This document shows positions 644 to 39,695 of a stretch of DNA of 39,705 nucleotides, piece by piece (within the stretch, counting starts at the first letter, position 1; each line of letters starts with the position of its first letter). The translations under genes and the position numbers were made by a program. The DNA is from Planctomycetota bacterium (lineage in GTDB: Bacteria > Planctomycetota > Planctomycetia > Planctomycetales > Planctomycetaceae), in the NCBI GenBank assembly GCA_019347905.1, contig JAHWKJ010000003.1, positions 1-39,705 of the forward strand. The letters run 5' to 3'. The notes beneath the pieces were generated by a model that saw only the letters and a list, made by a program, of their open reading frames with translations, was not told the DNA's origin and did no database searches.

Positions 644-814
644 GCGCAGGGGCACAAGGGCCGTGCGCTTCCCGCTGCGCCGCCGCGCTTCCCTTTCATT
701 CGCCGGCCGCGCAGAATGACCATATCCGGCGACGCGCGGATTTCCCGGTGGGCTGGCTCCCGGTGTCGGTCGGCCGCGGGAATGAGCTGCGGTCGTTCCG
801 GGGATGCTGGTCCG

Positions 815-3800: not shown

Positions 3801-4525
3801 AGGGCCGCTACAGCGTGTACCTCCAGACGGCCGGGCGGCCCGAACCCTGGGATGTGTTCGGCGGCGACTTCACCCGCTGCATGGCCGTCATGGCCGGCGT
3901 GGGTCTCGCGTCGTTGGCGGATCAGTTCACCGAGGCCGAATACGATCGACTGCTCGATCAGTTGCGGCCGGCGCTCGGGCGGGTTGCGCTGCCCGCGCCA
4001 TGGCTGCTGGAACTGCGGCTGTTCAGGACGGATTTTCTGCGGCAGTTGTTTCAGACTCCCCGCGGACACGAATACGCGCGCAGGGTGGTGATGATGGACC
4101 TTTCGCTCGATGAGTTCTATCGCATGGCCTGCCAAACGCTGGTGCTGGAGGCGGTCCGGATGGATGGTTTCGACCGGCCGATGACGCCCGAAGAAGAAGA
4201 GGCGCTGTGGCAGGCGGCCGCGGCAGGATACGAAGAGGTGTTTCTCGGCAGGCAAGGCATCGGTGAGCGGGCGAGTCAGTGCCTCTGCCTGGTTGGCCTG
4301 TGGAGCGATTATTACGGCGCACGGCTGGCCTGGATGGCCGTGGCGCCGAGATTCTCAGAGGAAGTCCGCGCCGGAATCGCTTACGCGCTCGGCATGCGCT
4401 ACCAGAAGCTGGGCCAACCCCGGGTCGCCATCGACTTCCTCGAGCAAGCGGTGGAATGCTCCACCGAAGGCTCGCTGCTGCAGAGCGTCGCGCGGGCGGA
4501 ATGGGTGCGGTTGACGCAGCCATAA
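815..4525 (+). CDS. Ser/Thr protein kinase with N-terminal zinc ribbon, TM segment and long TPR-like C-terminal region
   Basis: CRACQTCF...CPSCGS zinc ribbon; kinase motifs VGLGAFGTV, VAVKVPR, HRDLKPSN, DFGLAK, GTPAYMSPEQ; TM segment VAALAVVVIAAAVALTAWLV; helical repeat-like C-terminus. Start chosen at ATG 815. Confidence 0.9.
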   Translation: MQLHCRACQTCFEVDERSPPAELSCPSCGSTLDRAELATLPMQVAFGRIEQFELLHQVGLGAFGTVWKARDAHLDRVVAVKVPRSERLEPAEVERFLREARAAAQLRHPDIVSVHEIGQSDETVYIVTDFVEGVTLADWLTARRLSPHEAAELCARIAEALHHAHEAGIVHRDLKPSNIMVQVEDGGSLHPFVADFGLAKRERGEAMQTVDGQVLGTPAYMSPEQARGESHRADRRSDVYSLGVILYELLCGARPFGGSVRMLMYQVLHDDPPPPRRHNPRLHRDLETICLKCLQKDPARRYATAREMALDLQRFCAGEAILARPEPWSATLWRKLRRHKVAALAVVVIAAAVALTAWLVPQYYDHRVAAIRQEIESGLAAPELSGRYLEQMESLIVRLEGLAPEQARTERQTLYRQYAAAIGRRLLEPYLEDAKLAVIERAVQHLESRAPEDARRLRDTLQSRLSDWHVLFHLAPPFSSETGIFDPHTVEVEDGGVLPRAAVEGAASPQAVLTSVPVRGHVELRAMFEAQSWPSAPALGVILNADERHRYEFLLSTSNWGRRSSAGSGHFSTLADARERGGEVMVQIARDGELLRARRFKVSELPEGPLELTARREGSELSLEITGGGRLRFFDIFPLPSDAGTFGVAWPAGVRLTSLRAARRMLPAEPRPLELGDELFARGRDHLPQALAWYSEQATASAGTPVGQEARYKQALCLIQLGRIREAATVLEPLAEEQGRRWPFLARVRLSFAYFELDRLDDLDRVLDSLVFANPELLAEFIDDPAGDNRLEQLARLIPDEFYQQMLATAMRRYGGAFVVHFDRNHVERLRRLQSIVGSLNFEPSQRLNVSLVLSYAYRITGRSEEAVRILSDVLASDLPELVSPAERVNLVGWYVWTLRDLPERDFEGALETVNNHLLMSDGSYRPGCLGLLLVRARILAVAGRHDECQRDLEDFLRLVPAERMQYPDYGAVWLLRGFLHEERGDIEAARAAWSQGRYSVYLQTAGRPEPWDVFGGDFTRCMAVMAGVGLASLADQFTEAEYDRLLDQLRPALGRVALPAPWLLELRLFRTDFLRQLFQTPRGHEYARRVVMMDLSLDEFYRMACQTLVLEAVRMDGFDRPMTPEEEEALWQAAAAGYEEVFLGRQGIGERASQCLCLVGLWSDYYGARLAWMAVAPRFSEEVRAGIAYALGMRYQKLGQPRVAIDFLEQAVECSTEGSLLQSVARAEWVRLTQP

Positions 4526-21850: not shown

Positions 21851-24163
21851 TCATATGGCGATGGCCCCCAACTCACTGATCACTTCTCCGATGAGTGGTC
21901 GGTTACCCGCGTCGTGATCGACGCACCGAACGATCAGCCTTCGCCATGTCGGATGCAGCACAAGATCACCGTCAGTTTGGCCGGTCAGCAAGAAAACGAG
22001 GATCTTGCCGAATGAATAGATGTCAGCGCTAGGTTTCGCTTCGGCGCCGTCGAATTGCTCTGGCGCCATGAATCCTGGCGTGCCGTATCCTTGGAAAGTC
22101 CGCTGCGTCATCATTCGCCCCAAGTTCTTAGAAATGCCGAAATCAGCCAGCTTCCAGCGACCGTGCAGCGCGAGCACGTTCTGCGGCTTCAGATCGCGAT
22201 GCACGATTGCATGGCCGTGCAGCTCACGGACCGCTTCCGCGATCTCCAAGCCGATTTGTTTCGCTTCCGTGACGGACACGCCTGAACCGTGCTGTTCTTC
22301 GACATAGCTCTGGAGGTCGCCACCGTCGGCGTACTCGGTGACCAAGGCGAAATAGTCGTCGTCACGCAGAAAATCGAGCACCTTCAGCACGCGCGTGGTC
22401 TCCGCGCGCATGAGCTTCTCGTAGATCCGCGCTTCGCGCTCCAAGGCCGCTTTATCGGTGGAGCGGCTGCGAACCCGCTTCAGGAACACCGTCTCGCCAG
22501 ACTCCCGGCTGCGGGCCATCCAGGCCTCCGCCATGCCGCCGGCCTGGAGGAGTTTCAGCAGTTCGTATCCACGAAAGACTTCGTTGCTGACGCCGCCGGA
22601 CACGTGCTCGACCGCCGCCGCCCGACCTGATATTCCCTCGAGCGGGACCGACGATTCGATGTGCTCCGGGCAGCGGACGGAGAGTTCCTCGCCGCTCGAC
22701 TTATCCACGAAAGTCAGGTCCGCTGTCCGGAATTCCCCGGGGTTGATGCGCCGAAGTTGCTCCTTCACCCGTCGCCGCATTTCCAGCGCAAACGTGAGGT
22801 ACTCGCACAACTCTTCCCGCCTGACCTCGCCGTCGGGATGGATCAACTTGACGAGCCCCGAGACCGTCCGCATCACGGCTTTCCGGTCACGATGGCCGAC
22901 ATGCTGTCCGAAGGCGAAGTGCCGCTCGTACAGATCCGTGTAGTTCAGCGGGCGAAGCTCGTTGTGAAGGATCTCGGCGATGTAGTCGGCGATGAAGCCG
23001 AGGTGCGACGTGAAAAGTTCCGGCGTCAGCTTTGGCATCTCCCAGCCCGGCAGGTACGCGTGCCAGCGGTCATGGAACGCGTCGTCGTCGCGGATCGTCT
23101 CCGGTAGCGGCGCGAAGAGGTGCGAAGTCTCCACGAGCGTTTCCACGTCGCCGTGCGTGTTGCCGCCGAAGACGATTCCCGCCTCAGCCGAGATCGTGCC
23201 CTTGTCGTCGCCGCGCGAGAACGAGCCCTGCTCCATGTAGCCCTTGTACATGTCCTTGTCGTTCGCCGATTTGAAATTTGGGCCGGCGATCTCGTCGAAG
23301 GCGACGACGTCGTACTTGACGACCAGCCCCGGCTTGTCCCGGCGGTTTTTCCACCCGAACAGATCGGTGACGCTCCCCTGCCCCCCGGACAACAGGACGA
23401 CGTACGGCGACACCTCTCGGTACACGAAGGATTTTCCCGTCTCCTTCGGCCCGAGTTCGACCAAGTTGTAGTTCCGTTCCACCAGCGGAACGAGGCGGAG
23501 CAGATACAAGAGCTTGCGCCGCCAGCTCAGGGCCGCCTGCGTCGGCTCGTAGCCGATCGTCCGCAAGAGCACGTTCACCCACTCCTCGCGCGAGAAGTGG
23601 CGGCGAGCCTCGACGAACTCGCCGAGATCCGCGCTGGCAATCTGGATCGGCTGCATGCGTTTGAGCACGAACGGACGCGTGACGCCGCCGTGGACGATCG
23701 TCTCGTCGAACGCCAGCTCCAGGTTGGCCCAGACGCCACCGGTCAATGTGCGTTCGTAGGTGTAGACGACGCGTTCGTCGATGTGCACCTTGTCGAGTCC
23801 GGACGTCGCGAACCGGGCCCAGTACTTGCCGCCTTGGTCCTTCTCGTCAAAGGTGACGGTGACCAGGTCGATCATCTTCATCGACCGGTAGCGCTGCAGC
23901 CGGGCCTTGACCAGCTCGTTCTGGTCGGAGCGGACGATCCGCTCCCGAATCATGTCCTTAACGCTCGCCACGCCTGCGTCAATCTGGTTGTCATCAGTCG
24001 TCGAGCAGTACTTCCCCAGCAGGTATTCCAGGACGTACACCGGAATGCTGAAGCCGACCTTCAGCCGCTGCACGAGATCCTTGCGGACCACGCGGCCGGG
24101 AAAGTGCTGGATCAGCTTGCGGTCGAGCGCATCGACCCAGCCTGGCTCTGCACCACTCGACAT
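21851..24163 (-). CDS. brxL: BrxL-like AAA+ protein fused to a C-terminal Ser/Thr protein kinase
   Basis: N-terminal region and AAA+ with ELGPKETGKSFVYREVSPYVVLLSGGQGSVTDLFGW resemble BrxL. C-terminal kinase: LLQAGGMAEAW, VFLKRV, HRDLKPQN, ADFGIS, GTPGFMAPEQ. Confidence 0.85.
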   Translation of the reverse strand: MSSGAEPGWVDALDRKLIQHFPGRVVRKDLVQRLKVGFSIPVYVLEYLLGKYCSTTDDNQIDAGVASVKDMIRERIVRSDQNELVKARLQRYRSMKMIDLVTVTFDEKDQGGKYWARFATSGLDKVHIDERVVYTYERTLTGGVWANLELAFDETIVHGGVTRPFVLKRMQPIQIASADLGEFVEARRHFSREEWVNVLLRTIGYEPTQAALSWRRKLLYLLRLVPLVERNYNLVELGPKETGKSFVYREVSPYVVLLSGGQGSVTDLFGWKNRRDKPGLVVKYDVVAFDEIAGPNFKSANDKDMYKGYMEQGSFSRGDDKGTISAEAGIVFGGNTHGDVETLVETSHLFAPLPETIRDDDAFHDRWHAYLPGWEMPKLTPELFTSHLGFIADYIAEILHNELRPLNYTDLYERHFAFGQHVGHRDRKAVMRTVSGLVKLIHPDGEVRREELCEYLTFALEMRRRVKEQLRRINPGEFRTADLTFVDKSSGEELSVRCPEHIESSVPLEGISGRAAAVEHVSGGVSNEVFRGYELLKLLQAGGMAEAWMARSRESGETVFLKRVRSRSTDKAALEREARIYEKLMRAETTRVLKVLDFLRDDDYFALVTEYADGGDLQSYVEEQHGSGVSVTEAKQIGLEIAEAVRELHGHAIVHRDLKPQNVLALHGRWKLADFGISKNLGRMMTQRTFQGYGTPGFMAPEQFDGAEAKPSADIYSFGKILVFLLTGQTDGDLVLHPTWRRLIVRCVDHDAGNRPLIGEVISELGAIAI

Positions 24164-24181: not shown

Positions 24182-26677
24182 TCACCAGTCGCTGATCTCG
24201 ATCTTCAGGATGACCTCTTCTCGCGTCAGCAGTTGTTCATCGTCGGCATCCTGAACCTCGATGACAAGTGATGTGCCGTAGGGAAGATCCGGCCGAGGCT
24301 CCACGAGCACGAGGGGAACGGCTTTCGCAGTCGTGTCAGGCTCGACGAGTACGGGATCGGTGTGCCTGAAGACGAGTTTTCCGGCGGCTGGATCCTTCAC
24401 TTTCACCAGGACCCGCCGCGCCAGCAGGTTGCTTTCCGCTCCGAACATCGTCCGCTGGTCGGCGGCCGCCTGGACTTCGACTCGCGGTGCCTCGCTGGTG
24501 ATGTGCCCGACCGGCTTGAGCACGACGCCGATCTTTCGCGCCTTCGCGGGCCACGTCGCGACGACGACCGGCACGATCGCCTCCTGCAGCGTCGCCCCGC
24601 CGTGAAAAAACCCTAACGACCCATACGTGCGGAAGGCGTTCGTGCCGCGGGGCACCACGACCTGCAGATCCGAGCAGGGGACACGCAGCCGCACCGCCGT
24701 CGCGTGCGACAGGTTTCGGCCGACCACGGCGCGGCGATGCGTCCACAGCACCTCGCCTGTGGGCAGCTCCTCCTCGATATCGTGCTCGTCCGGCTGCCAG
24801 TGGAAGAACCCGTGGTCGCTGACGACGATTACGCGATGGAAGCCTGCGTCGCGCAAGCGGTGAATCGCCTGTACGTACCGGCTCAAGTGATCGTCGGCAC
24901 CGGTGAGCTCCAGCCGGCCGTCATGGCTGTCGAGTTCGTTCCCGTGCACGGCAATCACTCGCCGCCTGGCGGAGGCCCTCTTCAGGCTGCTGCCGTCCAG
25001 CACCTCCTCGATCTTGAGCCAGTCCCGGATCTCCAGGGTCTCCTTCAGCCAGCTCCGCCGTTTGTCGGCGCGCCCCAGGTCGCCGTCAAAGCCGGCGGCC
25101 GTTACTGAAAACGACTTGCCGTCGGCCGACAGCGCCACCGCGAGCTTCTCGCGCTGGATGGGCAACGCGAACGACATGCCCAGGGGCGTGATCGTCGGGA
25201 CCGGTGCCACGGCGGCCGAGACGCTCGCCCGCCGCGCCGGCTCGCCCTGATTCAGCAGTCCCGACAACCGCTGGCCGAGCTCGAATCGGCAGGCGTCGAC
25301 GAACAGAATGGCCGTCGGCACGATCTGCTGTTCCAGCTCTCCCAGCAGCAGCTCACCCGCCGTGGGCAGCTCAAACAGCTTGTCCGGCTCACGTGCCAGC
25401 AGCTCTGAATGCGCCCGGCCGACGCGGTCCATCGTCCGCAGATAGCCCCGCCGCAGCCGGGCGCGGAGCCGGACAAGCTGCTGCGGCAGCTCGGGTTCTT
25501 CGACGAACAGCCGCTCGCCGGCCTCATCGAGCCGCCAGCCCTGCGCAACGTACCAGTCGATGGCGTGCCGGACCGACTTCCACGCCTCCTCCACGCCGCC
25601 GTTCTCGACGATCAGGGCGGCAGCTCCGGCCAGCTCGCACAGGAACCGCCAGCCCACGGGCCGGGCGGCCAGCCGGCCCCAGAAGCCGCTCTCTCGCTCC
25701 TTGAAGGTCTGAGCGCCGCGTGCCAGCGCGTCCACGTCCTCCAGTCGCTCGAGCTGATCGACCGCCTGGTCGAACAACGTCTGCTCGACGATCCGCGAGC
25801 TCCGGGACCGCGGCGGCGCGGACAGGTTCCGCGCCCAATACACCAGCCCCGTCGTTCTCTCGGCTTCCGGGACAAGTTCCTCGAAGCTGGCAAGATACGT
25901 CACGTAATGCTGCCACTGCTTCAGCAGGTTCAGCGCCCGCTGCCGCGCCAGCCCGGGCGGGATGATCTTCTCCGGCTCGCGGAGCGGCTCCCGAGGCGAG
26001 CCGTCACTGGCGTCGGTACACAACACACACGCCGTCGCTGCAATCCGCCACGATCTTTCTGATTGGCCGGCGGGATCGGGGAAACCGAAATCCTCGGTCG
26101 CACGGCGGACGAAGAAATCGAACCGCCCTTCCGCCCGGAGCCGCTCGAACTCTCCTTCCGGCCCGGCCAGCACGTCGAGCATCCGGTGATCGCCAACCAG
26201 CGTGCCTTTGGCATTCGCCGGTGTAAGCTCCTTCCAGGTCTCGCGCGGTTTGTCGAACCATTCCCGCGCCTGTGCCGCGAGCAGCCCATCAAGCTGGCCC
26301 TCGTCATCCCGCGAGACGTCGACGCCGTATTCCCGCAGGGCGTCGAGCAGCGGGCGCTGCCAGACTTCCTCGGCCTGCAACTCGAACGGTTTGAACCACG
26401 TGATCCCCTCGCGCGCCACCGGCAGCCAGACGACGCGCGGCGCCGGCGGCGTGCGATAGAACCGGTCCCGAACGATCAACTCGTGCTCGGCCTCATGGCA
26501 CGACGCCGGTGCCCACAATTCAAACGCGTTGGCTTCCGCTGCCATTCGCAGCAGCTCGAGCCATTCGCGATCGGGATCACACCATACGAGGAGCGGCGGT
26601 GGGGCCGACTGGCGGCCGAGGACTTCGCCGATCGTCGCACAGAGCCAGCTCCGAAAGGTGGTCGACGCCGTACTCAT
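24182..26677 (-). CDS. pglZ: BREX alkaline-phosphatase-superfamily protein PglZ
   Basis: LFVDACRFELGQRL, VIVVSDHGFFHW, FHGGATLQEAIVPVV motifs; BREX gene context. Confidence 0.88.
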   Translation of the reverse strand: MSTASTTFRSWLCATIGEVLGRQSAPPPLLVWCDPDREWLELLRMAAEANAFELWAPASCHEAEHELIVRDRFYRTPPAPRVVWLPVAREGITWFKPFELQAEEVWQRPLLDALREYGVDVSRDDEGQLDGLLAAQAREWFDKPRETWKELTPANAKGTLVGDHRMLDVLAGPEGEFERLRAEGRFDFFVRRATEDFGFPDPAGQSERSWRIAATACVLCTDASDGSPREPLREPEKIIPPGLARQRALNLLKQWQHYVTYLASFEELVPEAERTTGLVYWARNLSAPPRSRSSRIVEQTLFDQAVDQLERLEDVDALARGAQTFKERESGFWGRLAARPVGWRFLCELAGAAALIVENGGVEEAWKSVRHAIDWYVAQGWRLDEAGERLFVEEPELPQQLVRLRARLRRGYLRTMDRVGRAHSELLAREPDKLFELPTAGELLLGELEQQIVPTAILFVDACRFELGQRLSGLLNQGEPARRASVSAAVAPVPTITPLGMSFALPIQREKLAVALSADGKSFSVTAAGFDGDLGRADKRRSWLKETLEIRDWLKIEEVLDGSSLKRASARRRVIAVHGNELDSHDGRLELTGADDHLSRYVQAIHRLRDAGFHRVIVVSDHGFFHWQPDEHDIEEELPTGEVLWTHRRAVVGRNLSHATAVRLRVPCSDLQVVVPRGTNAFRTYGSLGFFHGGATLQEAIVPVVVATWPAKARKIGVVLKPVGHITSEAPRVEVQAAADQRTMFGAESNLLARRVLVKVKDPAAGKLVFRHTDPVLVEPDTTAKAVPLVLVEPRPDLPYGTSLVIEVQDADDEQLLTREEVILKIEISDW

Positions 26678-26704: not shown

Positions 26705-27331
26705 TCAAAGCCCCGCCGCCTTTGCCAGTTCAAGAAGCTCCGCGAGCATCGCTCTCAGATAAGGGCACTTGTCTGCCGCAACGTTCGGGTCGAGTTTCGC
26801 GAACAACTGCTTACCGTAGGTTGTCTTCTTGTAGCTCCGCCGAGTTGCCTGGCGGTAGATCCGATCCAGAAGTTTCGCCGGAGGCTCGTCGAAGTTGATC
26901 GTCTCCGGCAGGGCGATCTTCTTCGGGAACGTATCCTGGACGGCGCGGGGGAAGATCTCCGGCTGGCTCAGGAGCCAGGCCTCGAACTCGTGCACGGCGA
27001 AAAACATCCGGAATCGTTCGAGCCCCAGGGCCTCTGTAAAGTGCGCCACGGCCCAGTCATATCTGTCCTGCGCCCCGGTGATGTGCTGCGGATAGAAGTT
27101 CGGTCCGTACAGGTCCAGCAGGGCGACGACCGCAATGATCTCCGTTTGCCGCGGACCGTCCAGATGCATGCGAGCCCGATCCGCCATCTTTCGGGCCAGC
27201 TCAGAATACCCTTCGAAGTGAACCATCTGGATCCCGACCGGTTGGCTCAATCGCGGATCGAGCCACCGCTTCAGGAATCCGGCCGCCGACTCCTTCTCGG
27301 TTCGGCCCTCGGCGAGCATCACGAACTTCAC
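26705..27331 (-). CDS. DUF4276 (TOPRIM-like) protein
   Basis: MKFVMLAEGRTEKESAAGFLKRWLDP, VALLDLYGP, HEFEAWLLS motifs; GTG start overlaps the upstream stop. Confidence 0.75.
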   Translation of the reverse strand: MKFVMLAEGRTEKESAAGFLKRWLDPRLSQPVGIQMVHFEGYSELARKMADRARMHLDGPRQTEIIAVVALLDLYGPNFYPQHITGAQDRYDWAVAHFTEALGLERFRMFFAVHEFEAWLLSQPEIFPRAVQDTFPKKIALPETINFDEPPAKLLDRIYRQATRRSYKKTTYGKQLFAKLDPNVAADKCPYLRAMLAELLELAKAAGL

Positions 27332-28584
27332 ACCATCGCCTCCAGTTCTTTCGACCGGTAGAGCTCGCCCAGCGTGTACTGCTGAAGCCAGTAATCCACC
27401 TCATCTCCCGAAAGCACCCGCAGCTCCGTCTGGCCATTCCGCCACTCGACAACCGTTGTCGTCGGCGACTCACCCTCGAAAGCGTCGAGCAGCTCCGGCG
27501 AATGCGTCGTGAGAATAACCTGCGCACGCTGGGACGCATCGCGGGCGTATTCCGCCACGATCGGCAACATCGAAGGATGCAGCCCGGTCTCCGGCTCGTC
27601 GATCGCGATCAACGGCGGCGGCGAAGGGTTAGCGAGCACAGCGAGCAGAAACAGAAACCGGAGCGTGCCATCCGAGAGATCCCCAGCCGACTGCTCGCGC
27701 TGCAGGCTGCGCCAGCGGATCCGCAGTTGGATCCGCTGGTCGGCCGCCGGTGGAAAGACGAGCTCTTCGAAGTCGTCGCCGAACGCGGATTGCATCGCCG
27801 TGTTGACTTCCTGTTTGAAATCGCGACTGCCGGTATACAGGCTGTGCAATACGGAGATGAGGTTCTGGCCATCGGCACTCACCTGCGATTCCGCACGCGT
27901 GACCTGCGGGGCGCGGATGGAAGCCTGCCGATGCGTCTGAAAATCGTGGTGGATCTTCCACGCGGCGATCTCCTGCTGAAACGCGGCGACGAAACGGTTC
28001 GCGGCAAACGGGCCCGAAGCGAACGACAGCAGCGTCTCACCTTCCGGAAGGGACTCCGCCGCTGCTGAGATGGCCTGACCACGTGCGGGTTCTGGAGTTG
28101 TCGTAGTCGTCGTCGTCGGAACGGACTCGAATCGCTGCGCCTTCGTTGAATACACGACTGCGTGGCCCGGATGTCGCTCAAGCAACTTGAACGGCTCGGT
28201 CATCTCGCCGCTTTCGACGCGAGCAAAGTTTCCGAGAAGCTCATGCTCAATCCGGAAGGCGCTGGAGACGCCGAGTTGTGCGATCGCGATTTCGTACGTC
28301 AGGGCATCCGTGGCTGGATCGGTGTACGGCGGGAGCGGCGTCATCCTGGCTCGGATGCGAATCTCTCGGGCCTGCCCGTCCCAGACCAGCGGGCCCATGC
28401 CGCCTTCCTGCTGAATATACGAGCCGAGTCTCCCGGCGGCCGCGGTGCTCAGCATCTCCAGGACGCGCAGCAGATTAGACTTGCCGCTGGCGTTCGGGCC
28501 AATGACAACATTCAGGTCGCCGGGCCGCCACGTCTGTGACTTGAGTGAGCGGAACCCTTCGACTTCGAGCTGGATGATCTTCAT
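27328..28584 (-). CDS. AAA family (RecF/AAA_15-21-like) ATPase
   Basis: MKIIQLEVEGFRSLKSQTW, Walker A VIGPNASGKSNLLR, Walker B PPLIAIDEPETGLHPSML. Confidence 0.88.
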   Translation of the reverse strand: MKIIQLEVEGFRSLKSQTWRPGDLNVVIGPNASGKSNLLRVLEMLSTAAAGRLGSYIQQEGGMGPLVWDGQAREIRIRARMTPLPPYTDPATDALTYEIAIAQLGVSSAFRIEHELLGNFARVESGEMTEPFKLLERHPGHAVVYSTKAQRFESVPTTTTTTTPEPARGQAISAAAESLPEGETLLSFASGPFAANRFVAAFQQEIAAWKIHHDFQTHRQASIRAPQVTRAESQVSADGQNLISVLHSLYTGSRDFKQEVNTAMQSAFGDDFEELVFPPAADQRIQLRIRWRSLQREQSAGDLSDGTLRFLFLLAVLANPSPPPLIAIDEPETGLHPSMLPIVAEYARDASQRAQVILTTHSPELLDAFEGESPTTTVVEWRNGQTELRVLSGDEVDYWLQQYTLGELYRSKELEAMV

Positions 28585-28639
28585 CTTCAATCCTCCCTTG
28601 GTGCCATCCGCGGCAGCGCTTCTGACGCCCCAAAGTGCG

Positions 28640-30658
28640 TTACAGATCCACTCCCAGGAATCGCTTCTCCGGGATCGCCGCATCCAGCACGGGGTCCAGG
28701 AGCCATGGCGGCCGCTGCAACTCGACCGCCGGCGGTTCCGTCGTTGTCACGATGTACTGAAAGGCCGGCTCGGTCCCTTCGCCGCCGCAGCCTTCAATCA
28801 TACGCACCAGCCGGAACAATTTGCGGTAAAGGTCCGCGGACATGTCGGAAGCCCGCGGCCCGTCGTGGATGAGAATCCGCGGATGGCAGCCGTAACCCTC
28901 AATGCTTCTTACCAACGCCGTCAGATCGAAGGCAAGATTCTTGACGATGCGGATTGCGGAGCTACGGCGCTCACCGCGACAGAATACGGTCAGGCCGATG
29001 TCGCGCCCCGAGAACGATGCCCGGCCTACGACTTCGCGTCCGAGCAGGGCGCAAATGAAATAGTCGAACTTTTCCGAGAACGCTCGCATGGCCTGAGTAG
29101 CCGCCATGCGCAGCTCCTCTTGCCGGCGATTCGACCGTCCAATCGCAGCTTCGAGCTGCAAATCCTCAGCCTTGAGCTGTTCTTCGTCTGTGCGTGCCGA
29201 CGCGACGTAGCCAGCCAGCCGTCGCAGGTTCGAAATGTGGGCTTCCAGCCCTGTCGCATGACGAATCGTCTCTTTCTGAGTCCGTCGTGCCGTCGCAACC
29301 GCATACCTGGCTGCCTGCGTCTCCCGTGATCGCGATGTCAGCTCGGCCTGCTCCTCGCGGAGACGACCCTCAAGGGAACGAAGGATCCGCTCAACCATCT
29401 CCGCCCGCTCGTCCAGGCCCTTCTCGGCATAAGCTTGGACGAACTGCGCAGGGCGGGAACTCACCACGGGGCATCCCGCCTCACGGGCCACATCCACCGG
29501 AACGTTACAGAAACCGGATGACGGTCCGAGACTCTCCTTGAATGCCAGGCGCTGCGCCTCGGTGATGGTCCCGCGCAAGCTTTGCAGTTCCGCGCGCTTA
29601 TCCTCGAGTTCCCGCGTGATGTTTCGGACAACTGCCGCCTGTGCTCCCTCCTCTCGTATGGCAGTCTCCAGTGCACCCTCCAAAGCACGAATCGCTGGCT
29701 CACCGACTTCGTCGCGTTGCTGCGCCCGGAGTGCGGTGGCGAGTTCCTCAATGGCGTTGTCACACGCTTCCCGAAACAACCCGTCCTCGACCGGCGGCAG
29801 TTCGCCGCCTAGCTCAACACGCAGCCGCTCTCGGTCGACCTGAGACTGGTGTGCCAGTTTCGGAAGCTCAGCTCGAATGGCTTTCCGTCGACTGAGACGC
29901 TCCTCGTTCTCTCGTCGCTCCCGATCCTCTTCGTCGGATACAAGCTTCAGCAGAGCTCGCAGCAGCAGGTGCCGCTCTGTTGCATCCAGTTGCGGCGATC
30001 GGGAATCGGTTGAGGCATCTCGCCATTCGATCAGCCGATCGAAGTGGCATTCCTGGTCCCGCGCAATCCATGGCAGCACGTGATCCCACAGGATTGGACC
30101 GCGCGAGGCTGAAAACTGCCTCACGGGGAGATCTCGCAACGCAGCACTCGCCAGCGCATCGAGGTACTTATCGAAATCCAGCCGCTGAGCATCGGGATCC
30201 AGTGCCTCGGCGATGATTGAGGTCCGGAGTGCGAACGGGTGCGCGCCGACCGCGAAGGGACGGCAAACGACCCATGGGTCATCATCGATGAATACATGCG
30301 CGACAACCCAGCCGCGTGGAAATCGGACCCGGACCTCGGCCCGCAGAAGCTCGTCGCCGAAATGCGCCTCGCCGAGAATGTGTCGCAGGAACCTGCAGAA
30401 CGTTGTCTTTCCGGCCGCATGACCGGAGAGACTGTCTTCAAACAGCCCAGTACCTTCGGTTTCGCCGTCGGCGGGTTTTGCCCACAGGATGTTCATGCCC
30501 CGGTGCAAAACAACCCGCCGGACCAGGTGTTCCTCCGCGTCGCTGAGTTCGCGCAGAACCCGCAGTTCCTGAATCCAGACCGCCGGTGATCTCCGGTGGG
30601 GATCCGGGATGATCCGCGTATCGGCATCCATTTCGATGAGCCGAAGCTGTTTCTCCAT
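28640..30658 (-). CDS. SMC/RecN-like coiled-coil ATPase (possibly ABC-3C/DUF2326-like)
   Basis: SGHAAGKTTFCRFLR P-loop, long coiled-coil, terminal RILIHDGPRASDM; coupled to the pglX stop. Confidence 0.7.
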   Translation of the reverse strand: MEKQLRLIEMDADTRIIPDPHRRSPAVWIQELRVLRELSDAEEHLVRRVVLHRGMNILWAKPADGETEGTGLFEDSLSGHAAGKTTFCRFLRHILGEAHFGDELLRAEVRVRFPRGWVVAHVFIDDDPWVVCRPFAVGAHPFALRTSIIAEALDPDAQRLDFDKYLDALASAALRDLPVRQFSASRGPILWDHVLPWIARDQECHFDRLIEWRDASTDSRSPQLDATERHLLLRALLKLVSDEEDRERRENEERLSRRKAIRAELPKLAHQSQVDRERLRVELGGELPPVEDGLFREACDNAIEELATALRAQQRDEVGEPAIRALEGALETAIREEGAQAAVVRNITRELEDKRAELQSLRGTITEAQRLAFKESLGPSSGFCNVPVDVAREAGCPVVSSRPAQFVQAYAEKGLDERAEMVERILRSLEGRLREEQAELTSRSRETQAARYAVATARRTQKETIRHATGLEAHISNLRRLAGYVASARTDEEQLKAEDLQLEAAIGRSNRRQEELRMAATQAMRAFSEKFDYFICALLGREVVGRASFSGRDIGLTVFCRGERRSSAIRIVKNLAFDLTALVRSIEGYGCHPRILIHDGPRASDMSADLYRKLFRLVRMIEGCGGEGTEPAFQYIVTTTEPPAVELQRPPWLLDPVLDAAIPEKRFLGVDL

Positions 30659-30662
30659 CTCG

Positions 30663-33600
30663 TCATCCTGCGATCAGCAGTCGGACCGCCTGCCTGTCCT
30701 CCTGGGTTCCAAGCTCCTCGGCAGCGACCTCGGGCAATGAGTCCACAACGGCCAGCGCGAGCTGAGCATCGGCGATCAGCCACGGGTCGCTGGGACGAAT
30801 TCGATCGGCATTTATCAGAACCGCCACCCCATCTCGGAGGCGTGCGTGGTCCAGCCGCTCACGATTGAGGAGATCGAGGATTGTTTCGCGAAAGTACCCC
30901 GCGGCAGGCGACTCACAGAACGACGCAGCCCAAGCGACGGCGAGGTTCTTCAGGTCCCGCGGCGCCCGGTCAACGAGCTGCTGACGCGACACCAGAAGCG
31001 AGTACGCGCGCACGAGGCGCATGAGATCGCTCGATCCATCGCTGTTCCGCAGCATCGCAATCAGAACAGCGGCCGGATAGAGTGCCGGCTCACCAAACGG
31101 CCGCCGCTGCTCTTGCGGAAGAGCAAACCTCGGCGCTCTTTGTTCAATCTCCGGCCACCATCCCGGCCGCGGCAGCTTGCCCTCCCGCACCCAGCGCCGC
31201 TCATCGGCGCGCCATTCGGCGCGGTCGGCGATCGCCTTATCCACATCTCTGCGGTTCAGAACGTCGGCCGCCAACACGCCGGCCTTCTGGAGCGGGGCAA
31301 TGTTCACCCGGACGCCGTCGTTGATGTCCGGGACATAGGCCGATTCCTGGCGGACGAACTCCGAAACCGTCTGCGGCGGCGGTCGGCGGCCGTCGAGGCT
31401 GGCGACCTCGTCGTAGAGTGGCTGCTCCGCGAGCCACGGCTCCCAGCCGGCCGCCTCGGCGCACGACCAGGACTCGATCTCGTTGCGCACGCCCTTCGCC
31501 CGGGCGGTCCGGTCGCGGACCTGGCGGTTCAGATCGCAGATCTCGGCCTTCAGCTCCTTCGAGCGGAGCTTGAGCTCGTTCAGCTCCTGCCGGGGCGGCG
31601 GCGGGTCGGTCGAGATTTCGGCCTCGCAGTCGGCCAGGTCCGCCTTGCGGGCCTTGATGTCGGCCTTGATTGGGGCCAGCACTGTCGCGTCGAACCGCTT
31701 CCACCAGACGTCGCAAGACCCTTCAAGCGCGCCTTCGACCATCGCCTTGGCCTCGCGGCAGATGATCGGCGCCAAGTCGGCCGCCGTCGGCTCTTCGGGC
31801 AGTGCCGCGGCTTTGGGCGGCTTTGGGCCGACGGCGGCGCAGTGGTGGTCGAGCCGCTCACAGGCCTCGGCGATCCACGAGCCGAGGTCCGGGTGCAGGT
31901 CCGCGCGGGCGGCGGCCCACAGCCACTCGTCGAGGACGTTGCGCCTGACCGTCTCGCTCAGCCGCCGCAGCCAGTGGGCCTTGAGCGCCAGGCAGGCGTC
32001 ATCGATGGCGTACTGCCGGAGCGTCCCCTGGAGCTTTTCGGGACCGAAGCCGCAATCGATCACGTCGGCCAGCTTCGTGTCGAGCGCTTTGAGCTCCTCG
32101 AGTGTCTCCAGCAGCTCCAGCCGGCGGCCCTCCTGGCGGTCGCTGCGGACTTCGGCGGGGACGGCGAGGACACCCCGCAGCTCGGTCTCGTGCCGTTGCC
32201 GCAGGACCCCCACGTACTGCGTGCGGATCTTGGGCAGCAGGTCGCCGTCGAGCCGGTGATAATAGGCCAGGCAGGCGAACGCGGCTGCTCGGCGAGCGGT
32301 GAACGTTCCCGACTGAATCTGCCAGGCGATGGGGCGCTTCTTGAACTGGCTCGCGTGCTGCTTGAAGAATTCGATGGCGAGCCAGGCATCGAGCAGCTTG
32401 CCCATGACTTCGGCAAAGTCGCCGGCGTCGATCTCCTCAGCCCTCAGCCGCTCCTGGACTCGCTCATCCAGGGTCGATTCGTTGGCGAATGGGGTGAGCG
32501 GGATGATGCCGTCCGGGTCGGCCCAGTCGGGGACCGGTTCGCCGGCTTCGATCTGTTTGGGCCAGCAGTGGCCGAGCAGGCGAAGTACCGTGACAGTGAT
32601 GCGGTCGGCCCACAGCCGGCGTTCCTCGGGAAGGCAGCGCCAGCCTTCGGTTTCGATCCCTTCCTTGAGGAGCCAGTAGACGGAGATTGGATGGATCTCT
32701 AGTCGCTGTGACAGTTCTTCAAGAAATGAGTCCGGTGGTATAGCAATCCGCGCACCGACAGCTAATGCCTCACCTTCATCTTCATCTTCATTGACTGACT
32801 GGTCAGGCTCAGGTTGGGATCTGCCAAGGGGCCCGGCACCGAAGTGCGTTCTCAAATGAGAGCGAAGCAAATCAAGCTCTGCACGTTCTAACGTACATCG
32901 TGAGTGGTCGATGAGCCTTGCGAGTGCGTCTTCCGGGAGCCTGATTGAATCGCCAAGCGACGGTGGTTGGTCGTACGAAGTGAGCAACGGATACCAACCG
33001 GAAGGTGTCCCAGTCTCGTAAGTGACCTCCATAATAGCAGCTTCATTGAGTTGGAACGAGCTAACAACAGCTCGCTCAAGACAGGCCGCGACAGTGTGAC
33101 GCAAAGCGCTAATGCACGCCAAACGAAGAGTGAGCTCTTGCCTAAATGGCGTTGCGCATTCGAACGTGATGTCAGTCATTTCGCGGCAGCTGATTTCACA
33201 CGCCTTGCATTCGCGGGCAGTGGTTACGAGCGGTTGGCAGCCAAGATGCGAGGGCCAAGGGAGTAAGGGCGGATAGCCTTCCGAGAAGACGATCTTCTGG
33301 CTGAGCGACCGAAGAAGATAGGTAGCAACGCGCGAGTTAAGAAATGCGGCAGTGGCCGATGTAACTAATGAAGAATTGAATAACGGGAAAACTCCACTGC
33401 TGATGTTTGTGAAGATACTGCCGGGATATAAATATCGTAATCCCAGAGACCCTGATGCGACCTGGGCATACCAATATCCTGAGCGGCCGTAGAATTGTTC
33501 ATTACGGACAACGCTCGGGGGAAATGCTTTGACGCGCGCGCCGTTATACTCCCACTCGACTGTAAACGTGTTTGGTCCCCACCATCGCGAGTAGCCACCT

Positions 33601-35995
33601 CCGTGGGCTGCAGGTCGCCATCGGTCGGTATGACCTGCTTCCCAGACTGTGCGTATGAATCGCTCCTTATCAGCCGTTGCAAGCCCTTGGCGAATGGACG
33701 CGAAATTGCCAAGACGCTTGTCCTGCTTTAGCAACGCAAAGAAGTCCTCGCGCAAGTAGTACACAAGTGGAGCGCTGGGAATGCCCACGAAGTCACTTTG
33801 AGCAGGATGTGAAACGGCTGCTTCGAAGTTACCGGAGATTGCCTGACGAAGTAGAGAGGATTGTTCGTCACAAACTCGAGGGGAAGCTAGCCGACATGCC
33901 CAGAGCCTATGCAGAGTGGATGGCGGTTGCATGCCCAGCGTGAAGAGCAGTGGCGCAACGGCTGCATTGCCAATCTCCGAAAAGGCGTATCGTCCGAGAT
34001 GCACGAGGGTTTCTAGGGAAGTGTCGACGACCAGACCACGAAACGAATCACATCTCGTTGGCTGAGAGGCATGGTGATTGACAATTCTCAATTGGGCGAA
34101 CGCACGAAGGAACATCCACGACTGCTGGGTCACCATTGCCACCCGGCCGCCCCCGGCAGCGAGTTCCAGATTGCGGAGAATGAATGCGGCGTACATATCC
34201 CGCTTGGCGGGCTTGAAGTTCCGCTCGACGTACTTCTTGAGCGCTGGCCCCATGTTCTTGCTGCCCATGTACGGCGGATTGGCGGCCACCACGTCGTAGC
34301 GCTGGCTGAGCAGGTCTACCAGCCGGAAGCCAGCGCGAGTTTCAGCGCCGAGCAATTGATCCAGAAACTCGCCCGATTCGCGCGCCCGCTCAGTGAAGGC
34401 GTCGATGGCTGCCTTCGCGCGGTAAAAGAGCCGGTCGCCAAACCCTTCGTCAGAAATCTCGTGGAACGGCAACTGGCCGCGCAATGCGTCCTCGCGAAAC
34501 TCGGGGAAGAGGTAATTGGCCTCCCGTTATTCGCGGACCTGACGCTCCCAAGTCGCGTGCTCCTCGCGGATGATCTCGCGGAGGTCCTGCGCCGGCCGGG
34601 CCAGGCTGCCGATCTCGTCGATATGCTCCATCGTCTGAGCGAACTTCCGCAGGACACGTGCGACAGACGGCTCCTTCTCGAACCCGGCCAGAAACTCCTC
34701 CCACGCCGGCCCCTTCAAGTGGCTGGCGGTGGCCGCAACGAGGTTCGTCGCCGCGCCGGCGTAGTCGAACGCCCGCTCGGCGGCCTTCATCCACAGTGCG
34801 ACCTCGGCGATCTGCACGCTCCGCGGGTCGATGTCGATGCCGTACAGGTTCCGCGTCAGGATCGCGTCGCAGATTGCGTCTGGTTCGGTCAGCTCACCTT
34901 CTTCCTCGTACATCGCATAGAACAGGTCGAATGCCTCCAGCAGAAAGTGCCCCGAGCCGCAAGCCGGGTCGAGGAACGTGATCTCCCGGACTGATTTGTG
35001 TTCGACCGGCGCCCGGTCGGCGTCGCGGACGTAGTACTCCCATTCGTCGCACAGCTTCGACTCGGGGTGCATGCCCATCCACGTCGCGCCCAGCGAGTTC
35101 TGCACGAGGAACCGGACCATGTAGCTTTCGGTGTAGAGCTGCGTGGCGGGCACGATATCGGCGCCTTCGATCTTCGCCCCCTTCTTCGTGCGGACTCTCT
35201 CGAAGACGCGGTCCTTCTCCTCGGTGTTCCAGTACTGGTAGGCCCAGCCCAGCGCATCGGAGCGCTGAACAGTCCGGCCGGGCCGGCTGACGTGACCGTC
35301 GCGTCCGGCCCGTCCGGGGCACCCCCGTGCGGCTCGTTCTCCTGGGTCGCGCCGCGCGGCTCCGGCTCGGCCGCCGGGCGGATGCGGTACTTCTGCAGCG
35401 TCACGGGATGGAGGCTCACCAGGCCGAAGCAGTCCAGGAGCGCCGCGGGCGACGGCCGCAGCGCCACGCCCGCCGCCTCGGCTTCGAACAGCAGCGGAAG
35501 CTGACGCGCCCGCTCGCGAAACACCTGGTCCAGGAGCGCGAAGCGGCCCTCGTCCTCGCCCGCACACATCTCGGGTCGCCGCTGCGCCAGCCGGTGGTGC
35601 TCCAGCGAGCGCCCGCCGTAGACATCCTTCTGGAGGATCACCTCGTCGATCAGCCCCCGCGCTTCCATGCACCGCAGCGCCAACAGGCGATTGGCCCAGG
35701 TATAGGCCGTCTCGCGGAGGAACTCGCCGATCGCCTCGGCACGCTCGACGCCGGCCTCACGGCGGACGGCCAGGTACGCATCGACCACTGTGCGGGCCCG
35801 GCGGTCCTCGGCGGAGATGTGCTGCGGCAGCTCGTCGCTCGGCACCGGCTCGCGGTCGCGGCGAACGCCCAGCCCGGCCAGCCGCTGCTCCAGGTCGCCC
35901 GGCTGCCAGTTCCCGTCGCGGTCGTAGCGGCCTTCGAGCAGGTGCCGCAGTTCGAGGACGATGGCCTTGAGGAGTTTGCGTTCTGCGGGCGTCAT
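30663..35995 (-). pseudogene. pglX: Class I adenine-specific DNA methyltransferase PglX, interrupted
   Basis: N-terminus in frame A (MTPAERKLLKAIVLELRHLLEGRYD), frame B carries GWAYQYWNTEEKDRVF and DPACGSGHFLLEAF, then an in-frame TAA at 34527-34529, then the same frame resumes with VAANPPYMGSKN. Confidence 0.85.
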
Positions 35996-36011
35996 GGCAG
36001 TCGGGTGTCGT

Positions 36012-39000
36012 TCAACGAAGTTCCACGTCACAGCCGCCGCCGAGGAGCCGGCACACGTGCTCGTCGAGCTTGCGGTTGAGCTGCTGCCACTCATCGAGCG
36101 TGGACACGCGCGTGACCGTGGCCACGTCGGTCATGCGGACGGTGCAGACCTGGCGCGAAGGCCGTGCGCCTTCGCCGGGCGTCGTCCCGCTGCCTGTGGT
36201 GGTCTGCGCGCGGCGGGCGGCGTGCTCGGCAATCCGGCGGCCAAGCTGCACTACGAGCTGCCGGGCCTGATCGGGAAATGCCGCGACCTGCGCGGGCAGG
36301 GTTGCGCTGTCGAGCTGCTCGCGCAGGTTCCGCAGCGGCTGGGCCAGATTCGACTCCAGGGTCGCATCGAGCTGTCGCTCGGCCAGCTCACCTGGCAGCC
36401 GCTCCAGCACCTGGTCGAGGATCCCGCGCGCCTCACATCGCCAGGAATCGAGCACGGGAGCCAGTTCGAGCTGCGCCTGGGCCTTGCGACTCTCCAAGGC
36501 ATTCCACACATCGCTTTCGGCGAAAGAGGCGGCCGCCCGTGCCGCGCGATAGTCGCCGAGCAGCTTCGCCAGGGGCGATGCGGCGTCAAGCCGGTGCTCG
36601 ACCGCTTCGAGATGCGCGACGAAGTCGCTTAAGTCTTTGAAGAGAATCGCGTGCTGCTGCCGGAACCGGGCGTGCCGCTGGATGGCCTCGCGGCCGACCG
36701 CGAGCGTGTCCTGCCGGGTGTGGATCTCGTTGACGCGATGGACGGGGTTTGTCAGCTCGAGGACGATGTTCCAGGCGTCGTGACCCTCGCTGAAAGCGGC
36801 CGGCAGCGGCATCCCGGAACCGGCCGTCCACAGCCTCACGGCTTCCGCCTGGGCGAGCACGTCGCGTCCGAGCTGGTCGGCGGCGGCGGCCAGGGCGGCG
36901 GGAGTCTCGTCGATGTTGCGGGTGCGGGCCAGCTTCATCAGGAACTTTCGGGTCTCGGTGAGGACCTCGGGATCGACCTCGCCCTCCTCCAGAATGAGCT
37001 GCGTGCGGTCGAAATTGCGGGCGACGCGGAGCGCGTCGACGACGTCGCGGTCGGCGGGGTTCGAGTACTCCTTCTGGCCGATCGAGAGCTTCACGTTACC
37101 GCCTCGGACGAGCGCCGCCACGCCAACGCGGACCGCGTTGGGATCCCAGCCGTAGCCGATCCCGCACAGCGTCTCCAGCAGGTCCTTACCGTGAACGCGC
37201 TTGCCGTCCTTCTGTGCGGTGGCAAGCTGGATGCGGATGGCATCGAGCAGGGGCGCGTGCAGGTCCACTTTGCCGGCCTTATCGAACAGCCTGAGCGCCG
37301 CGAGTTCGCGGGTCGTGTCGGTCTGGCCGGCGAGGACGTCCTGAATAGCTTTCTGCTCGTGCGTGATGCGGACCGGGACTTTCTCGAACCGGGGATACAG
37401 CGCGGGCCAGCAGGCGGCCATCCCGCCGCGCAGGGCGCCGCCGGAGGTCTGGCCGGGCTTCAGCCCGAGCAGCCGGCTCATCCCCTGGAACACGAGGTGT
37501 CCCGTGCGCAGGCCCTCCTTGAGACCTTCGACCACGCGGCGTTCGAGTTTGACCAGATCGTCTGTTTCGCGCTGCATCGCGAGCTGCCGGGCCTCTTCGG
37601 ACTTCCGCGGATCGCCTTTCCAGTTGCCGATCACCTCCTTGACGGCCAGAAACCGGGCGAGGTCCCGATCGAACGCGTTCACGCGTCCGCACAGGAAGAA
37701 GATCGTGTTCTGGTCTTCCGAGCGCAGGCTGCGGTTCTCCAGGTCGGCCAGCGTCACGCGCCCGACGGACAGCGGCGTATACAGCTTGAGCGTCACGTCG
37801 CCCTTCGTGCCCGTCACAGGATGGTCGTCAACCATCAGTTTGAAATGGAACTCGTGGTCACGGTACGACACCACGTCGGAGTCGAGCCAGCGCCGCCAGG
37901 GCGTCTTGCCTGACTCCTGAATGAAGTTGTCGCGAAGCCCCCGCTCGCGGTCCTGCAGCATGTACTGCTGCTCGGTGGTCGTGACTTCTTCTTCGAACGT
38001 GCGCTTCTCGCCGGTGAGGAACTCGAACTCTTCGCCGATAGGGGCCACCAGCCCGGCCGCAATCAGCCGCTCCAGTTCCGGATCGATCCGCGCGAGGACG
38101 GCCGGCAGGTCGTCATCGGCGCTTTCGACGAGCAGCCGGGCGATGTTGTCCCTCGTCCGCGGAATGAACGATAGCTCGCGGATAAGGTACAAGACCTCGG
38201 CGACCCGGGTCGTCAGCGGCGTCGCGCCGGGCACGGTGTCTTTCAGCCGCAGCAGCTCCGTGCGCACGTCAGGGCTGATCTCGCCTTCACCGGCGAGATT
38301 CGCGTAGAGCTCGTCGAAGCTGACCAGTTCTCCCAGGCTCTCCTGGAGGTAGCGTCGCCGCCCGGCGCGGAGGATGTCCTGGGTGATGGCCAGCAGCGTG
38401 CGCGTCGAACCCGACATCTGCTCGCCGCGGCCGCCCTTGGAGCGGAGCGACTTGACGATCTCGGGCACGACGTGGACCTGCCACGGAAAGAACGGGTAAT
38501 ACGTGGCGAACTTCTCTTTCGTGCAGGCGGGGAGCGTGCGGCTGGCGACGTTCGCCGGTTCACCCAGGCCGCGAATGACGCCGCCCCGCCGCTCGTACAG
38601 CTCCTCGACGGCATCGTGTCCGGCAATGCTCTTGCGGAACAGCCGGTCCTCGAGCACCAGTTCGATATTCTCGGTCGTGAGGGCTGGCTTGAAGCGGAAC
38701 CGGCCTTCGATCTTCTTGAAGTCGCTGTCCAGCGCGCGGGCTTCCTTGTAGATCGAGCCCATGTCGCCGTGGGTCGTGACGACGATCCAGATGCGGCCCT
38801 GGCCCCGCAGGGCGGCGTCTTCGACCAGGGCCTGGAGCTGCGAGAGGCGGCTGGAGTCGTCTTCGATCCACTGGCCGGATTCGTCGAGGACGAACAATAG
38901 CCGCTGGGCTTTCTTCCGCTCCGCCTGGCGCTGCTCCATGTCGCTGAGGATCGTGTCCACCAGGAATCGCACATTGTGCAGCTCGCCGCTCTCGGCCTCG

Positions 39001-39695
39001 CGCAGCGCGCGATCGACGCTGTCGGAGGAGGGGAAGACGTCGGGAGCGACTTCGCACGCCGCAGCGTACAGGTGCGAGCGGTAAAACGAGAGGTTCTTCT
39101 GGATGTCCGGCCAGGCTCGTCCGGCGCGGGATTCGACGGCCCGGTGCAGCCGCTCGAGCTTGCCCTGCCGATCGAGCTCGGCCTCGATGACCCGCGCATA
39201 GAGCAGGTTACCGCTGTATCCGCGCGACAGGTAGTACTGTGAGAGCAGCAGGCTGGCCAGCGGCCGGCTCCGGCTGTCGGCGAGCGTGTTGAGGTTGAAG
39301 GCCAGAACGCCGGTTTCGCACTGGTCGATCCGCGAGAGGCTGCGGAGGATCGAGCCGCGGCGCGGCGCGTCGGACTGGAGACGGGACTCGAATCGCTTCG
39401 CGGCCGGGACTCCGGCCAGCATCGGATTGCTCACCAGCAGCGAGGCGATCTTGGCGAAGTGCGATTTGCCCGATCCGAAATACCCGGAGATCCAAGTGCC
39501 GATCTCCGTAGTCCGCTGGAGAAACGTGTCCGTGTAGTGCTCCAGCAGGTCATCCAGGTACTGCTCAATCAGCGGTGTGACGACGTAGCTGCCGATCTCG
39601 GCAGCCAGCTTGCGTTCGTCGTCCCGTTCGCCGACCTTGATGACCGGCTCAATCTTGTCTTCAACGGGCGTGGCGAACAGGTCCCCGATTCTCAC
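36012..39695 (-). CDS. brxC: BREX ATPase BrxC
   Basis: MRIGDLFATPVEDKIEPVIKV, Walker A GYFGSGKSHFAK, LLFVLDESGQWIEDD; 1227 aa, GTG start. Confidence 0.9.
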   Translation of the reverse strand: MRIGDLFATPVEDKIEPVIKVGERDDERKLAAEIGSYVVTPLIEQYLDDLLEHYTDTFLQRTTEIGTWISGYFGSGKSHFAKIASLLVSNPMLAGVPAAKRFESRLQSDAPRRGSILRSLSRIDQCETGVLAFNLNTLADSRSRPLASLLLSQYYLSRGYSGNLLYARVIEAELDRQGKLERLHRAVESRAGRAWPDIQKNLSFYRSHLYAAACEVAPDVFPSSDSVDRALREAESGELHNVRFLVDTILSDMEQRQAERKKAQRLLFVLDESGQWIEDDSSRLSQLQALVEDAALRGQGRIWIVVTTHGDMGSIYKEARALDSDFKKIEGRFRFKPALTTENIELVLEDRLFRKSIAGHDAVEELYERRGGVIRGLGEPANVASRTLPACTKEKFATYYPFFPWQVHVVPEIVKSLRSKGGRGEQMSGSTRTLLAITQDILRAGRRRYLQESLGELVSFDELYANLAGEGEISPDVRTELLRLKDTVPGATPLTTRVAEVLYLIRELSFIPRTRDNIARLLVESADDDLPAVLARIDPELERLIAAGLVAPIGEEFEFLTGEKRTFEEEVTTTEQQYMLQDRERGLRDNFIQESGKTPWRRWLDSDVVSYRDHEFHFKLMVDDHPVTGTKGDVTLKLYTPLSVGRVTLADLENRSLRSEDQNTIFFLCGRVNAFDRDLARFLAVKEVIGNWKGDPRKSEEARQLAMQRETDDLVKLERRVVEGLKEGLRTGHLVFQGMSRLLGLKPGQTSGGALRGGMAACWPALYPRFEKVPVRITHEQKAIQDVLAGQTDTTRELAALRLFDKAGKVDLHAPLLDAIRIQLATAQKDGKRVHGKDLLETLCGIGYGWDPNAVRVGVAALVRGGNVKLSIGQKEYSNPADRDVVDALRVARNFDRTQLILEEGEVDPEVLTETRKFLMKLARTRNIDETPAALAAAADQLGRDVLAQAEAVRLWTAGSGMPLPAAFSEGHDAWNIVLELTNPVHRVNEIHTRQDTLAVGREAIQRHARFRQQHAILFKDLSDFVAHLEAVEHRLDAASPLAKLLGDYRAARAAASFAESDVWNALESRKAQAQLELAPVLDSWRCEARGILDQVLERLPGELAERQLDATLESNLAQPLRNLREQLDSATLPAQVAAFPDQARQLVVQLGRRIAEHAARRAQTTTGSGTTPGEGARPSRQVCTVRMTDVATVTRVSTLDEWQQLNRKLDEHVCRLLGGGCDVELR

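Follow-up and report, generated by a model that had tools for sequence, protein, structure and literature searches.

A BrxL protein of a planctomycete type-1 BREX operon with a predicted Ser/Thr kinase in place of the Lon-like domain

RESULTS

A BrxL protein ending in a kinase domain

The final gene of a type-1 BREX operon in a planctomycete genome encodes a BrxL protein that carries a Ser/Thr kinase domain at its C terminus. It was found in a stretch of 39,705 nucleotides (referred to here as the window). The architecture is conserved in three other planctomycete genomes and has a single origin, and the catalytic residues of both the AAA+ and the kinase parts are retained. On balance, we favor the explanation that the Lon-like domain of a type-1 BREX BrxL was replaced once by a Hanks-type kinase, and that loading of BrxL rings onto DNA clusters and activates the attached kinases. 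The architecture was observed directly, while the kinase activity, its substrate and its outcome are what we infer from it. The gene and its domains are located as follows.

21851 to 24163, minus strand: brxL-kinase fusion gene, 770 aa, ATG start, last gene of the BREX operon
23711 to 24109, minus strand: BrxL_N domain, residues 19 to 151 (Pfam PF20442, 8.6e-39)
22718 to 23671, minus strand: BrxL AAA+ ATPase (BrxL_ATPase), residues 165 to 482 (Pfam PF13337, 1e-115), Walker A at 238 to 245 and Walker B at 290 and 291
22583 to 22663, minus strand: variable linker, residues ~501 to 527, where relatives enter the Lon-like domain in the alignment
21854 to 22582, minus strand: Ser/Thr protein kinase domain, residues ~528 to 770 (Pfam Pkinase, 8.3e-37 at 533 to 730)

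An earlier note, made from the sequence alone, had read this open reading frame (ORF) as a BrxL-like N terminus followed by an AAA+ domain with an ETGKS Walker A motif. Pfam, NCBIfam and the known structures agree with this reading. The NCBIfam BrxL model TIGR02688 matched residues 18 to 475 with 486 bits (cut-off, 329), and the Acinetobacter BrxL structures (PDB 8EMC/8EMH) aligned to residues 12 to 506 (8.5e-123). Both a BrxL_N domain and a BrxL AAA+ domain with intact Walker motifs (GPKETGKS at 238 to 245; D290/E291) are thus present. TIGR02653, the NCBIfam model of full-length type-1 BrxL, aligned only up to position 493 of 675; therefore, the Lon-like part is missing from the ORF. A recognizable Lon-like domain, which would speak against a replacement, was also looked for with family profiles and with a hidden Markov model (HMM) trained on the tails of close Lon-type relatives. 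Neither the Lon family in Pfam and NCBIfam nor the relatives' HMM matched the fusion ORF. The similarity to BrxL breaks off after SSGEELSVRCPEH (residues 489 to 501), and the breakpoint, coordinates and strand given earlier were exact. Judged by its domain content, the protein is a BrxL, though not a canonical type-1 BrxL, since it has no Lon-like domain and the C-terminal domain varies within the family.

The C-terminal domain has the fold and catalytic residues of a Hanks-type kinase

The earlier note had proposed that a protein kinase with Lys, HRD, DFG and APE motifs replaces the Lon-like domain, and the Pfam Pkinase match, AlphaFold2 and Foldseek all bore this out. The motifs are K562, the alpha-C Glu E577, HRD at 655 to 657, N662, DFG at 674 to 676, APE at 700 to 702 and the alpha-F Asp D714. 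In the alignment, K562, E577, HRD, N662, DFG and D714 were present in all four fusions, and APE was present in three, the fourth (L011) having PPE. An AlphaFold2 model of residues 515 to 770, built from 35 sequences, gave a confident kinase fold (mean pLDDT, 89.5; pTM, 0.88), and the Foldseek matches listed for it were protein kinases. A model of the full-length fusion (15 sequences), as suggested by the earlier note, was poor (pLDDT, 49) and gave no usable arrangement of ring and kinase. By its predicted fold and its catalytic Lys, alpha-C Glu, HRD, DFG and APE, the domain is a Hanks-type Ser/Thr kinase, and phosphotransfer is predicted. A misread HKD nuclease was ruled out by the Pkinase match and the kinase fold, and there was no PLD match.

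The comparison of the four copies bears on whether the domain acts as an enzyme. It could be a structural or a regulatory module, and one reading takes it for a pseudokinase or for a structural spacer that takes no part in phosphotransfer. The glycine loop is indeed degenerate (AGGMAEA) and the C-lobe is short. However, the Lys, alpha-C Glu, HRD, Asn and DFG residues were kept in all four copies despite an identity of only 49 to 67% across the domain, and we regard this reading as very improbable. Given the conserved catalytic residues, a purely structural role is the least likely one for the domain. The window fusion and the other three were 54 to 67% identical in the kinase, 80 to 84% in the BrxL core and 17 to 29% in the linker. 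In the same comparison, pN was 0.23 to 0.32 and pS was 0.67 to 0.80 for the kinase, while in the linker, pN was ~0.6, about equal to pS. According to these substitution values, purifying selection acts on the kinase, and the linker is without constraint.

The fusion is rare and has a single origin

The earlier note had called for a search for other BrxL-kinase architectures. The scan covered 85,462 species, each represented by a single genome, with seed patterns that favor close relatives. Three more fusions were found, all in metagenome-assembled genomes (MAGs) of planctomycetes, with the same architecture and junction and 70 to 76% identity to the window fusion: Singulisphaera (L009, 75%), Planctomycetota ZE-3NOV15 (L010, 70%) and Planctomycetaceae CSSed162cmA_153 (L011, 70%, with its N-terminal part on a separate piece, L023). 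No further fusion was detected in 395 genomes of the window's phylum and 171 of its family, in the families of the L009, L010 and L011 genomes (45, 150 and 200 genomes, respectively, which overlap), in 379 genomes from the phylum of L016 and 396 from that of L012, or in plasmids, viral contigs or phages. The BrxL-kinase fusion is therefore rare, with no fifth case in about 1,900 genome look-ups, a large but incomplete sampling.

BrxL relatives outside the fusion group, which come from Myxococcota, Acidobacteriota, Pseudomonadota and methanogens, were 52 to 57% identical overall and up to ~72% identical over residues 1 to 500. All close non-fusion relatives whose C terminus was recovered had a Lon-like domain exactly where the kinase of the fusions begins. 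When BrxL genes, mostly from Planctomycetota, were tallied, the kinase occurred only in the four fusions, nearly all others had a Lon-like tail, and those with neither were truncated or short. In a maximum-likelihood tree of 58 BrxL cores, the four fusions formed one clade (support, 100/100) nested within Lon-type BrxLs, which indicates one domain swap that was then kept. As read from this tree, the simplest history would be a single swap, after which the fusion was inherited or transferred among Planctomycetota.

The type-1 BREX locus of Nannocystis (L016, 12527 to 14215) has a Lon-type BrxL and, shortly after it, a separate Ser/Thr kinase gene. This neighborhood may be due to chance in a kinase-rich genome. 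The Nannocystis kinase was considered as a precursor of the fusion and rejected, being a generic kinase from a kinase-rich lineage that scored 58 bits against an HMM of the fusion kinases.

The fusion gene closes a type-1 BREX operon

Upstream of the fusion gene, the window contains the following genes.

24182 to 26677, minus strand: pglZ, 831 aa (Pfam PglZ, NCBIfam PglZ_1_B)
26705 to 27331, minus strand: DUF4276 protein (Pfam PF14103, 4e-29; weak HEC-01B match, 3.6e-14)
27328 to 28683, minus strand: OLD/ABC-type ATPase (AAA_21), partner of the DUF4276 gene (Pfam AAA_21, 2.7e-35; PADLOC HEC-01A, 2.4e-64)
28640 to 30658, minus strand: 672-aa protein with no Pfam match (weak PADLOC LmuB match, 1.7e-8)
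30663 to 36094, minus strand: interrupted pglX methyltransferase gene (NCBIfam BREX_1_MTaseX on both pieces)
36012 to 39695, minus strand: brxC, at the contig edge (NCBIfam BREX_BrxC, 585 bits; cut-off, 400)

The genome's only Pfam BrxA match lies at the end of another contig (C152, 1 to 1377, L109) and is followed by a gene below the Pfam threshold for BrxB, which its position and mutual similarity suggest to be BrxB-like. This pair is most likely the missing 5' part of the window operon. In the genomes of L009 and L010, brxA, the brxB-like gene, brxC and pglX are contiguous, and the order in L010 continues with pglX, inserts, pglZ and brxL-kinase. As pieced together from these loci, the gene order brxA-brxB-brxC-pglX-inserts-pglZ-brxL is that of a type-1 BREX operon, with the window's brxA and brxB-like gene on the separate contig. 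The brxL-kinase gene starts 18 bp downstream of pglZ, and a PglZ 57% identical to that of the window directly precedes brxL-kinase in L010 and L023. The genes between pglX and pglZ differ, namely, an ABC ATPase and a DUF4276 protein in the window and a dual-OB protein with two DUF488 proteins in L010; the conserved pairing is thus that of pglZ with brxL-kinase. These inserts look like the exchangeable cargo described in a 2026 BREX survey (PMC12839542). The three-gene insert of the window (26705 to 30658, minus strand), with its HEC-01A/B-like pair inside the BREX operon, is likely an auxiliary defense module.

The pglX gene of the window is broken. Compared with the pglX of the L010 genome (L107), which is open to the contig end, its N-terminal frame runs from 36094 to 34889, the frame changes at ~35260 to 35330, and an in-frame TAA occurs at ~34527. 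This break could reflect gene decay, phase switching or a misassembly of the MAG; unless it is an assembly error, the BREX locus of this genome may be inactive. A single frameshift and a single stop in pglX, in an assembly of 779 contigs, would also fit the view that the fusion itself is an assembly chimera or a decayed pseudogene. However, the junction, which the earlier note had named as a possible sequencing chimera, is the same in four independent assemblies, and the brxL-kinase gene is open and under purifying selection. A chimera was therefore rejected, and we give this view almost no credence.

A second, unrelated Ser/Thr kinase of 1,269 aa with TPR repeats is encoded in the window (716 to 4525, plus strand), and the genome has dozens of kinases. 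Together with DUF1501 and the nearest relatives, this abundance makes a planctomycete origin of the genome very likely.

Comparison with known BREX proteins and defense kinases

The fusion shares with canonical type-1 BrxL (Acinetobacter 8EMC/8EMH; TIGR02653) the N-terminal and AAA+ domains, the Walker A and B motifs and the position after pglZ, but it has a Ser/Thr kinase where the canonical protein has an inactive Lon-like domain. In the main text of the survey mentioned above, the most comprehensive one located (NAR 2026, PMC12839542), the C-terminal part of BrxL is an inactive Lon-like domain, an HKD nuclease (1,030 taxa) or, in type 4, absent. The HKD variant as described there resembles the fusion in kind, with an enzyme occupying the position of the Lon-like domain. 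That enzyme is a phospholipase D-type HKD DNase, whereas ours is a Hanks kinase without a PLD match, and the "HRD" noted there for the HKD nucleases is not the HRD motif of kinases. According to the same survey, type-4 BrxL has the N-terminal domains and AAA+ in common with the fusion, but it lacks a C-terminal domain and sits with phosphorothioation genes rather than pglX.

The earlier note had stated that kinases are known in BREX as PglW and not as a BrxL domain. In agreement with this, passages on kinases in the survey's main text deal with PglW, with DndF and with a minimal histidine kinase joined to Schlafen RNases, and not with BrxL (PMC12839542). No prior description of a BrxL-kinase was found in the literature searched, including that main text. 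PglW of type-2 BREX (Pgl) is likewise a Ser/Thr kinase in a BREX-family system, but it stands alone as a protein of ~1,400 aa that has a NERD nuclease domain and lacks a BrxL part (PMC4365076). Its architecture (NERD nuclease, tandem kinases and a long C terminus) is absent from the fusion, and the window kinase reached only 42 bits on the NCBIfam PglW model (cut-off, 990), in a partial match confined to the kinase stretch. By profile and architecture, the fusion kinase is not a PglW derivative. Its best PADLOC kinase match was MAD6 of the MADS system (162 bits). However, kinases taken as controls from this genome and from Actinomadura scored higher on that model; the match is thus not diagnostic, descent from MAD6 or another defense kinase was rejected, and no lineage is claimed.

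DISCUSSION

Clustering of Hanks-type kinases is a standard way to switch them on, by trans-autophosphorylation. BrxL forms heptameric or hexameric rings that assemble on double-stranded DNA with ATP; the N-terminal and AAA+ domains contact the DNA, and the Lon-like domain, far from the DNA, joins two rings tail to tail (PMC10164562). With the DNA-handling parts intact and the joining domain replaced by a kinase, ring loading is most likely converted into phosphorylation. The N-terminal and AAA+ parts of the fusion would retain their ATP-dependent loading, as a ring, on DNA selected by BREX. Assembly would gather six or seven kinases at the place where Lon-like domains normally pair two rings, and crowding would turn them on by trans-autophosphorylation. 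The active kinases would then phosphorylate BREX partners or host or phage proteins, so that DNA recognition would become a phospho-signal that stops phage growth. A more specific version, in which the DNA-loaded AAA+ ring directly gates the attached kinase and the self/non-self discrimination of BREX is read out as phosphorylation, is possible, and we put it forward tentatively. The Pgl system offers a precedent: PglW phosphorylates itself, and phage resistance depends on the lysine of its kinase domain (PMC4365076). Since a nuclease function has been reported for type-1 PglZ (PMC11974810), it should not be assumed to be an opposing phosphatase.

The nearest rival to this explanation is self-phosphorylation that tunes ring assembly. 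The kinase would act mainly in cis, phosphorylating BrxL at the activation loop, the linker or the N-terminal domain and thereby setting ring formation or DNA release; it would take the place of the Lon-like dimerization domain as a regulator and send no outward signal. The replaced domain controls ring-ring assembly, and the C-terminal mutation Q661W alters the ATPase activity and DNA affinity of BrxL (PMC10164562). In addition, conserved Thr residues (TQ-T) are found in the activation loop of all the fusions. The present results are compatible with cis and trans substrates alike, and we hold this rival to be unlikely, though worth serious attention.

For stand-alone defense kinases, growth arrest by phosphorylation of host proteins has been proposed. 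The fusion might similarly be an abortive-infection effector, with BrxL sitting on invading DNA and the kinase phosphorylating essential host proteins until growth stops. Such stand-alone kinases exist (PADLOC families Stk2, PD-T4-6 and mad6), and BREX loci often carry auxiliary or suicidal effectors (PMC12839542). However, the PADLOC kinase matches of the fusion do not identify it as one of these kinases, since other, unrelated kinases in this genome obtain higher scores, and we consider this role to be rather improbable.

Conversion of ring loading into phosphorylation thus remains our preferred explanation. Compared with the Lon-like, HKD-nuclease or absent C termini in the survey's main text, a kinase as the C-terminal domain of BrxL appears to be new. 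Kinases have thus come into BREX by two routes: type 2 has PglW, and the fusion described here has a kinase as part of BrxL. As a natural BrxL variant with an enzyme in place of an inert tail, the fusion offers autophosphorylation as an assayable readout of when and where rings assemble. Our findings suggest that BREX, on recognizing foreign DNA, can emit a phosphorylation signal. If this is true, it would be a signaling BREX, unlike the nuclease-based readouts so far proposed for type 1.
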